Assembly: GCA_012729975.1 (NCBI GenBank)
Contig: JAAYBW010000285.1
Coordinates: 1-51,650 of the forward strand
Direction of reading: 5' to 3'
Length of the DNA stretch: 51,650 bases
DNA from: Clostridiales bacterium
GTDB lineage: Bacteria; Bacillota; Clostridia; Oscillospirales; Oscillospiraceae
Every line of letters starts with the position of its first letter. Position 1 is the first letter of the stretch. Shown piece by piece: positions 48,860 to 51,083 of this stretch. The notes beneath the pieces are model-generated. The model searched no databases and was not told the origin of the DNA. It was given only the letters and a program-made list of their open reading frames with translations. The translations under genes and the position numbers were made by a program.

Positions 48860-48888
48860 TTGACAACACTGATCCCGTGTGTTAGTAT
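48860..48888 (+). promoter_or_regulatory. Sigma-A promoter for the tRNA-Ala locus
   Basis: TTGACA and TAGTAT with 17-bp spacing, starting a message at about base 48895. It reads through four tRNA-derived repeats before reaching the intact tRNA gene about 400 bp downstream. No nearer promoter was seen in front of the intact tRNA. Confidence 0.7.
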
Positions 48889-48915: not shown

Positions 48916-49306
48916 GGGGGTATAGCTCAGCTGGGAGCGCGAGCTGTACGGTAAACCACCCCAAATAAAATGGGCAAGCGAATGGCATTAAAAATTGAAT
49001 AGTTTCCGCACAACATGGGGGTATAGCTCAGCTGGGAGCGTGAGCTAATCGGTTTACTAGCAATTTACTAAATAGGAAAAACATGGGGGTATAGCTCAGC
49101 TGGGAGCGCCAGCTGTACGGTAAACCACCCCAAAAATCACGGGCGCTTGAATGGCATTGAAAATTGAATAAAAGTTTCCATAAATGGAATAACATGGGGG
49201 TATAGCTCAGCTGGGAGCGCGAGTTAAACAGTAAACCACCCCAAATAAAATGGGCAAGCGAATGGCATTGAAAATTGAATAAATCTTTCTAAAAATGGAA
49301 AAATCT
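48916..49306 (+). repeat. Four tandem truncated tRNA-Ala 5' copies with inserts
   Basis: Copies start at 48916, 49017, 49085 and 49196 (spacing 101, 68, 111 and 111 bp to the next copy or tRNA). Each begins with GGGGGTATAGCTCAGCTGGG and then GAGCG, lacking the AG of the intact GGGAGAGCG. All four share that two-base deletion. Copies 1, 3 and 4 add an insert of about 36 nt (GTAAACCACCCC) and then the anticodon-arm GAATGGCATT, ending TTGAAAATTGAATAA or a near variant. Copy 2 lacks the anticodon part. None has the T arm or 3' acceptor strand. Each D-arm region forms a compensated hairpin, for example AGCTCA/TGAGCT in copy 2 and CAGCTGG/CCAGCTG in copy 3. Confidence 0.9.
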
Positions 49307-49382
<76 letters not shown>

Positions 49383-49384
49383 TC

Positions 49385-49420
49385 AAAGCCTTGAAAACAC
49401 TACGTTTTCAAGGCTTTTTC
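49385..49420 (+). terminator. Strong terminator after tRNA-Ala
   Basis: AAAGCCTTGAAAAC pairs perfectly with GTTTTCAAGGCTTT around ACTAC, and TT then C and more T follow. The stem is 14 bp, directly after the tRNA CCA. It also lies 13 bases past the recombinase stop on the other strand. Confidence 0.92.
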
Positions 49421-49433
49421 CTTTCCTGTAAAT

Positions 49434-51083
49434 TCAGAACGAAACAACCTTTTGCGTGCTTTCAGTCAGTAAAACCGGGCCATTTTCCTGCATTAACCCC
49501 AAGTGAGCTATACCCCCGACTTTTTCAAAATCAATGGTAAAATCAATCTCGATTTCATAGCCGCGCCTGACCCGGACAGACTTCATAATGCGCGCCAGAA
49601 TCATTTTCTTGGTTTCCATGTCGCACTCGTCGTACATATCCGCCCATGTCCGCAGATTGTCGAACTGCTGTGAAAGGGCATCCTTCATTTTTTCGCCGTC
49701 CTGGATTTGATCCTCCAACTGCTTGACGCTCTGTTCGGCGTCGGCAGCTTTTGCTTTTGCATCCTCGTACAGCTTGTTCAGCAGGTCAGGATTCAGCTTG
49801 CTGTCACCGCGAATGATTTTTATAACCTCGGCCTCGTACTCCAAAACCTCGGCGGTACACGCCCGTAATGTGGCTTTGGCCGTGGTAAGCTGCATTTGGT
49901 ACTTAGCTATCTGATTGGCATAACGCTCCGCAATCACGGCGTCCTTTGGCACATCGTTCAGTTGCTCAAACAGGTTATGGACGACGGTTTCAATGATTGC
50001 ATCCAATTTTCGAACTGTGTAGCCGGTCTGCCCGTCGCAAAGGTGAGCGTGGCGCGTTCTGTTGTAGCATATATAGCGTGTCCGGGGTGTGACTGTCACT
50101 TCACCATCCTGCCGGTGATACTTCTTGCCGTTAGTGGTGATTGTCATCCGCGCCCCGCAATGGCCGCAAAAGATGTTGCCGGAGAGCAAGGAACTTCCCT
50201 TTGTGTTAAGGGGAACGCACCGCTCTTTGTAAGCCGCCGATCTTTGAGAACGGAGGTTTTCCGCCATTTCGAAAGTCTGCGGGTCGATGATCTGCAAATG
50301 CGGGAAAATCGGAGACTCCGTATCGCCGCTTTTCAGGATACCGATATACGTTCGATTGGATAGCATGTTGTTGATGGTCGCATTGGTAAAATTGTTGCCC
50401 TTGCGATTGAGAACCCCTTGTTCATACAGGGTGGTGGCGATCCGCTGAGAGCCGTAGCCTTTCATCACATAAAGTTCAAAGATGAGACGGACAACGGTGG
50501 CCTCTTGCTCGTCGATTAGAATTTCATTGACCTCATTCTTCCCTTTATTGACACGCCCTTGCTTTTCCAAACGATAGCCAAAGGGAGGCGTACCGCCCCG
50601 GAAGTAGCCCTGCTCAACGATTTGGCTGAGCCTGGTCTTGGTGCGGATAGAGGTTTTTTCGCTCTCTCCGGCAGCCTGCCAAAAGCGGATATAATTCATG
50701 AGCTTGTCAACGTGCTGCTCAATTTTCTGCTGCCCCTCGGTGACGCTCCAAACCTCGATGCCATGCTTGACGAACCATTCTAGCACAAAGGGCGTTTCGT
50801 CGTCAATTCTCCCTAAACGGTCAAACATGAACACCAACAGAATTTGAAACTCACCGTTCAGGGCGGCTTCTTTCAGGTCTATGATAGCATCGCGCTTCGT
50901 GGCGGACACCTTAGAGCCGGAAACGCCCTTTTCCTCAAACTCTTTGCCTATCTTCCAGCCCATCCGCTCCGCAAACTCGCGGCAGGATTGGCGCTGCATG
51001 GGGATATCGTCTTTGTTGCCCTCGCTCAGATAAAGCTGCTTTTTTGAAGACACGCGATATAAACCGTAACATATTTTTTGCAT
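49434..51083 (-). CDS. Large serine recombinase (site-specific integrase)
   Basis: A 549-aa large serine recombinase. The resolvase domain has the catalytic serine in LYRVSSKKQ (Ser12) and FMFDRLGRI. The recombinase domain follows (FGYRL, TNATINNMLSNRTYIGI), then a zinc-ribbon part (FCGHCGARMTI, then later cysteines in RYICYNRTRHAHLC), a long coiled coil (residues about 400-500) and a C-terminal DNA-binding tail. The codons for VGGIAHLG near the end contain GGGGGTATAGCTCA, identical to the tRNA-Ala 5' end but inverted relative to it. It starts at ATG behind GAGGATGA, and cuts and joins DNA for insertion or excision. Confidence 0.93.
   Translation of the reverse strand: MQKICYGLYRVSSKKQLYLSEGNKDDIPMQRQSCREFAERMGWKIGKEFEEKGVSGSKVSATKRDAIIDLKEAALNGEFQILLVFMFDRLGRIDDETPFVLEWFVKHGIEVWSVTEGQQKIEQHVDKLMNYIRFWQAAGESEKTSIRTKTRLSQIVEQGYFRGGTPPFGYRLEKQGRVNKGKNEVNEILIDEQEATVVRLIFELYVMKGYGSQRIATTLYEQGVLNRKGNNFTNATINNMLSNRTYIGILKSGDTESPIFPHLQIIDPQTFEMAENLRSQRSAAYKERCVPLNTKGSSLLSGNIFCGHCGARMTITTNGKKYHRQDGEVTVTPRTRYICYNRTRHAHLCDGQTGYTVRKLDAIIETVVHNLFEQLNDVPKDAVIAERYANQIAKYQMQLTTAKATLRACTAEVLEYEAEVIKIIRGDSKLNPDLLNKLYEDAKAKAADAEQSVKQLEDQIQDGEKMKDALSQQFDNLRTWADMYDECDMETKKMILARIMKSVRVRRGYEIEIDFTIDFEKVGGIAHLGLMQENGPVLLTESTQKVVSF
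49504..49517 (-). repeat. Inverted 14-nt copy of the tRNA-Ala 5' end inside the recombinase gene
   Basis: On the minus strand GGGGGTATAGCTCA is identical to bases 1-14 of the tRNA-Ala gene and of all four truncated copies. It is followed by CTTGGGG against GCTGGGA, so the likeness goes a little further with one shift. It encodes part of VGGIAHLG. A 14-nt match is very unlikely by chance in 50 kb. Confidence 0.88.

Follow-up and report, generated by a model that had tools for sequence, protein, structure and literature searches.

What produces a series of truncated tRNA genes directly in front of an intact one? This question is raised by contig JAAYBW010000285.1 of a Clostridiales bacterium (assembly GCA_012729975.1), whose whole stretch of 51,650 nt is referred to below as the window. 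A preliminary description of the DNA listed four units upstream of an intact tRNA-Ala(GGC) gene (49307-49382), and we found them as described, with starts at 48916, 49017, 49085, and 49196 and spacings of 101, 68, 111, and 111 bp. It has been proposed in the same description that the units are scars of repeated integration, decoy attachment sites, or a tRNA-derived RNA leader. The features of the region are listed below in the terms of the reading developed in the text.

48860-48888, forward: promoter-like site (consensus match), presumed host promoter of the array and the tRNA
48916-49016, forward: unit 1, consisting of tRNA 1-22 (48916-48937), a putative attP-type right arm (48938-48962), and then the element leader
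48933-48937, forward: GGGAG core of unit 1, the last 5 nt of tRNA 1-22
48980-48989 (unit 1) and 49260-49269 (unit 4), forward: shorter copies of the tRNA right half-site
49017-49084, forward: unit 2, tRNA 1-22 joined to a different right arm, CGTGAGCTAATCGGTTTACT
49085-49195, forward: unit 3, tRNA 1-22, right arm CGCCAGCTGTACGGTAAACCACCCC, and leader
49143-49158, forward: copy of tRNA 24-39, GCGCTTGAATGGCATT, the putative right half-site of attB, inside unit 3
49196-49306, forward: unit 4, nearest to the tRNA
49307-49382, forward: intact tRNA-Ala(GGC) (ARAGORN, Rfam RF00005)
49385-49417, forward: terminator-like hairpin after the tRNA, with a 14-pair stem and a T-rich tail
49434-51083, reverse: gene for a large serine recombinase (LSR) of 549 aa, convergent with the tRNA (PF00239, PF07508, PF13408)
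49498-49517, reverse: inverted partial copy of the left half-site, GGGGGTATAGCTCA, tRNA 1-14, in the 3' end of the recombinase gene

Every unit carries the tRNA sequence GGGGGTATAGCTCAGCTGGGAG over exactly its first 22 nt and diverges abruptly thereafter; GAATGGCATT is present in units 1, 3, and 4, and the right arm of unit 2 is probably derived from another element type. What had been called a shared two-base deletion is not a deletion and reads as a chimeric recombination junction after tRNA position 22. Each unit looks like an attL site, in which the left half of the resident tRNA and a GGGAG core are followed by the end of an element. The junction pattern is absent from all dinucleotide shuffles of the window, and the reversed control pattern gave 0 hits in the scan in which the junction TAGCTCAGCTGGGAGCS was found in 25 out of 121 sampled family genomes and 24 out of 295 sampled order genomes; a chance origin was rejected on these grounds. 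A scan of GTDB genomes returned at least 119 stretches with the junction, which among the matches listed come mostly from gut Oscillospiraceae, Ruminococcaceae, and other Clostridia, with further ones in Lacrimispora, Thermincola, a Peptococcaceae, and a Coriobacteriia record; a few matches in other phyla are chance. An intact tRNA-Ala, i.e., a restored target, follows within 600 bp of the unit in 79 out of 122 oriented loci, and many of the other loci end at a contig end. That the window belongs to a 322-contig assembly and that several arrays stop at contig ends could point to an assembly artefact, or else the units could be duplicated tRNA genes in plain decay. Such an origin is extremely improbable, however: the junction at tRNA position 22 recurs in the 25 family genomes above, among them a one-contig genome (G100) and G096, and in cultured isolates, e.g., Flavonifractor sp. 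An112 and Neglectibacter timonensis, the reversed control is empty, and decay would not yield a fixed breakpoint with mirror-image partners elsewhere.

It had also been suggested that the D-arm hairpin of the units is maintained by paired changes and hence under selection for structure, and that one promoter reads through all units into the tRNA. The units could then act as a leader RNA, derived from the tRNA, with a function in regulating or processing the tRNA transcript. They do sit between a promoter-like site and the tRNA, and GGGGG can pair with CCCC in several of them. The site at 48860 does exist (TTGACA-17-TAGTAT, 10/12 matches, with TG before the second hexamer) and relatives carry comparable sites ahead of their first unit, but about 1.4 sites of this quality are expected by chance in the region. 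The structural argument did not hold: in the AGCTC/GAGCT stem across the four units the 5' side is invariant and the 3' arm shows one G-U change and one broken pair, so that 0/5 pairs change on both sides, and the three pairings quoted in support lie in different registers. Fold energies of the units stay within 1.3 sd of shuffles (z-scores -0.1 to -1.2), and in the Rfam search none of the units match, only the intact tRNA reaching the gathering score. Left and right halves combine freely, one right half occurring with several left halves, and the exact junction pattern is absent from 96 out of 121 family genomes. We consider a functional leader very unlikely, with nothing beyond the presumed read-through speaking for it; the D-arm-like pairing and the CCCC motif are explained by the D-arm of the tRNA together with the attP arm.

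An element that interrupts the tRNA at the core should have the separated 3' half at its far end. Displaced tRNA-Ala 3' halves do exist: downstream of the unit and in the same orientation, G100 (at 95.7 kb), G088 (6.4 kb), and G139 (66 kb) each have one per unit, and G096 has three of them for its three units. Each displaced half is preceded by a non-tRNA arm such as GGGGTATGTAACTGATGGAGTT, the mirror image of a unit right arm, except that one of the three halves in G096 has no clear attP arm. When the left arms of the displaced halves are compared as mirror images with the right arms of units from their own genome, the summed score is 206, compared with 131.8 +/- 14.9 when genomes are permuted (0 out of 5000 permutations reach 206). 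Joining the two arms at GGGAG gives rebuilt attP sites of 59-60 bp which, in 6/6 cases, have arms inverted-symmetric about this short core (shuffle p <= 0.009) and are unlike attB, in line with what a serine integrase requires of its attP. For the window, attP was rebuilt from the arm of unit 3 and that of a displaced half on contig C320 of the same genome (G000), whose left arm also mirrors the right arm of unit 1. This is the only displaced half found for the four units in a fragmented assembly; the window itself offers attL sites, with a single candidate attR on another contig. A free attP was not found in viral contigs searched with one specific right-arm pattern, and phage records searched by tRNA similarity gave nothing bearing on the array.

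Both junctions and the corresponding empty site are available in relatives. G088 carries one unit, the tRNA, and the displaced half ~6.4 kb further on, while G303 and G238, from the same genus, have a single intact tRNA-Ala without a unit between the flanks that border the element in G088; the left flank common to all three includes a divergent tRNA-Ala. G100 and G139 provide attL and attR. (G132 was considered as the empty site for G004 and rejected, its flank leading to an unrelated tRNA-Leu.) The two sides of the core have different histories. Bases 1-7 of the unit differ from those of the adjacent tRNA in 24 out of 96 units, and in several loci identical right arms are joined to different left halves: L068 and L186 have the right arm and tRNA in common but not the left half, and one right arm of the CGC-type elements is seen with four left halves. 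In G022 and G141 the dnaX-side flank is ~90% identical, yet the units differ and the tRNAs have different acceptor stems. The window and its closest relative, L145, are homologous from the tRNA start onward, with unrelated DNA to the left. The mixed halves, together with the shared G022/G141 flank beside different tRNAs, argue that the sequence on the left of the core comes from the host or from a previous element and that the sequence on its right, along with the intact tRNA, is part of the element. As for cargo, the 95.7-kb element of G100 encodes a relaxase and a weakly TraG-like ATPase and is on that account probably an ICE, and the G022 element carries a type I restriction-modification system.

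The window recombinase has the domain composition of an LSR, with Resolvase N-terminal, Recombinase, and zinc-ribbon domains all above cut-off in one 549-aa protein, and the integrase of TP901-1 (3bvp) is its only sequence relative in the PDB. The L145 protein is 91% identical; other homologues are 42-50% identical, several of them encoded at the equivalent place beside units in relatives. Among the 56 unit loci with room for a recombinase, 27 have a homologue within 1.5 kb and 29 have none adjacent, a frequency that does not differ significantly from that in 13 unit-free loci (p 0.13). We take the loci without an adjacent gene to be those where the element was lost or rearranged and the scar remained. 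Phage records searched with the recombinase yielded three faecal contigs (41-50% identical), none with an adjacent tRNA. A putative prophage (L252, IMG/VR UViG_641736271) encodes a 48%-identical recombinase next to a tRNA-Ala 3' half that resembles attR, so elements may differ in where the recombinase is placed. Four further loci (L193, L216, L242, and L245) have units with a common right arm ending in GCACTCAGAAACGCACCC and a reading frame of 380-575 aa directly 3' of the tRNA, in some of them before the recombinase. The half-site copies in units 1, 3, and 4 of the window (tRNA 24-39 in unit 3) are also kept in L145, as is the inverted copy of tRNA 1-14, which is in frame with the recombinase gene (the protein ends VGGIAHLG...). 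Because fragments of the right half of the cognate tRNA also occur in some CGC-type units, such copies may be functional, e.g., as extra recombinase binding sites, although this is speculation.

The preliminary proposal of scars of repeated integration is supported by the attL-type junctions, the matching attR, the rebuilt attP, and the empty site in relatives. In our reading the array is very probably a stack of attL scars from successive integrations of LSR-carrying elements into tRNA-Ala, and decoy attachment sites are superfluous for explaining it. An element would integrate into the D-arm of tRNA-Ala by crossover within the 5-nt core GGGAG (tRNA 18-22). The resident tRNA would be split, its promoter and first 22 nt staying on the left, joined to the right arm of the element (the unit, or attL), and its 3' half moving to the far end, joined to the left arm (attR). 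The left end of the element would supply a short leader and a complete tRNA-Ala, which would land behind the host promoter and replace the broken gene. Scars can pile up since each element both restores the tRNA and offers a fresh target: the transplanted tRNA would be a new full attB behind the same promoter, and the next element would add its unit between the older units and the tRNA. The comparisons show the junctions together with attR and the rebuilt attP, the empty site, the transplanted tRNA, and that a recombinase is present. The remaining parts of the model are inferred: the host promoter would transcribe both array and tRNA, the events would have followed the order given, with the promoter-proximal unit the oldest, elements may be lost while their scars stay, and the recombinase at 49434-51083 is the predicted catalyst. 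By this model unit 4 would be the youngest scar, and the tRNA-Ala(GGC) of the window would have been carried in by the last element and again be a full attB.

The number of units could also have grown in a different way, the first ones being true junctions that were then multiplied by slippage or as tandem duplicates. In L145 the two 101-bp units are nearly identical, and the four 117-bp units of L166 show 2 to 5 differences; as noted, a single attR was found in the genome of the window. The window units, however, are not alike in their length, leader, or right arm (identity to the reference copy 73-88%), unit 2 being of another type, and G096 combines three different right arms with its three displaced halves and three recombinase genes, one of them with a stop codon. 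Accretion at one site is seen in G096, and for the window successive integration is suggested by the four differing units. Duplication as the general source of the arrays is rather unlikely, but some arrays of near-identical units may have grown by it.

In tyrosine-integrase elements that target tRNA genes, attP supplies only the missing part of the tRNA. Serine integrases recognize a short core with symmetric attP arms and an attB unlike attP, and TP901-1, Bxb1, phiC31, and the streptococcal ICEs target protein-coding genes. A serine integrase requires attP and attB to differ, which means that it cannot restore a split tRNA from attP; supplying the whole gene would be a route by which such an enzyme can use a tRNA gene as target. 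The elements described here resemble the Islander/TIGER-type elements of tyrosine integrases in that a tRNA gene is targeted and its function restored (PMC12884075, PMC5704250), but differ from them in the serine-type recombinase, the D-arm crossover, and the complete tRNA gene supplied; the tRNA-targeting elements listed in PMC5704250 use the tRNA 3' end. They share the enzyme class with serine-integrase phages and ICEs (TP901-1, Bxb1, phiC31, and the rumA-targeting streptococcal ICEs, whose serine integrases use protein genes; PMC4701971), whereas their own target is a tRNA gene. In a survey of mycobacterial prophages the tRNA-overlapping sites were assigned to tyrosine integrases (PMC10654092). 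Accretion through site-specific integration is established for ICEs, IMEs, and CIMEs (PMC5704250, citing Pavlovic et al., 2004), and it resembles the present case in that successive elements integrate at one site in tandem, with att sites between them and remnants that persist. Whole elements stand in tandem there. In the present arrays a complete new target gene arrives at the left end of each element, so that nothing but short attL junctions accumulates on the side of the promoter. The literature searched, from which most subscription journals were excluded, contained no paper on serine integrases in tRNA-Ala and no LSR family that cuts the tRNA D-arm and transplants a whole tRNA gene. Accretion of elements is already known, and the proposed D-arm-cutting, tRNA-transplanting LSR family would be new as far as the literature was searched.

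It seems probable, with less assurance than for the scars themselves, that these serine-integrase elements carry the whole tRNA gene, that tRNA-Ala(GGC) and tRNA-Ala(CGC) have repeatedly been replaced by horizontally acquired copies, and that the array is a time-ordered record of past elements, including lost ones. If so, working genes for both tRNAs have been swapped again and again in these bacteria, mobile DNA has a way to exchange bacterial tRNA genes, and the scars let the order of past integrations be read from assemblies. Serine integrases are used in genome engineering, and many related recombinases with one conserved target and diverged attP arms would make a natural data set for their sequence specificity.

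Several loci show further arrangements. A second array in the genome of the window (L028, G000:C110, 489-246, minus strand) has three units upstream of tRNA-Ala(CGC), and two of the three contain anticodon-arm fragments of that tRNA. In L059 and L162 the unit and the tRNA are separated by a copy of tRNA-Ala(CGC) that is truncated within its anticodon arm (GGTTCGCATCC), which would fit the use of this gene by a different integrase with its own crossover point. In L039 (G004:C26, minus strand from 4331) a unit precedes a tRNA-Ala 3' half that has no 5' half of its own, which makes the tRNA look broken; the flanking bases AATAATGCG and CGCATTATG are complementary. In L117 (G096:C7, 578-653) a complete tRNA-Ala precedes the first unit, giving two intact tRNAs at the locus. 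In L030, L033, L047, and L050 the leader before and the trailer after the intact tRNA are complementary (e.g., CTCTTTCCC and GGGAAAGAG), which we read as a putative extended stem carried by the element.
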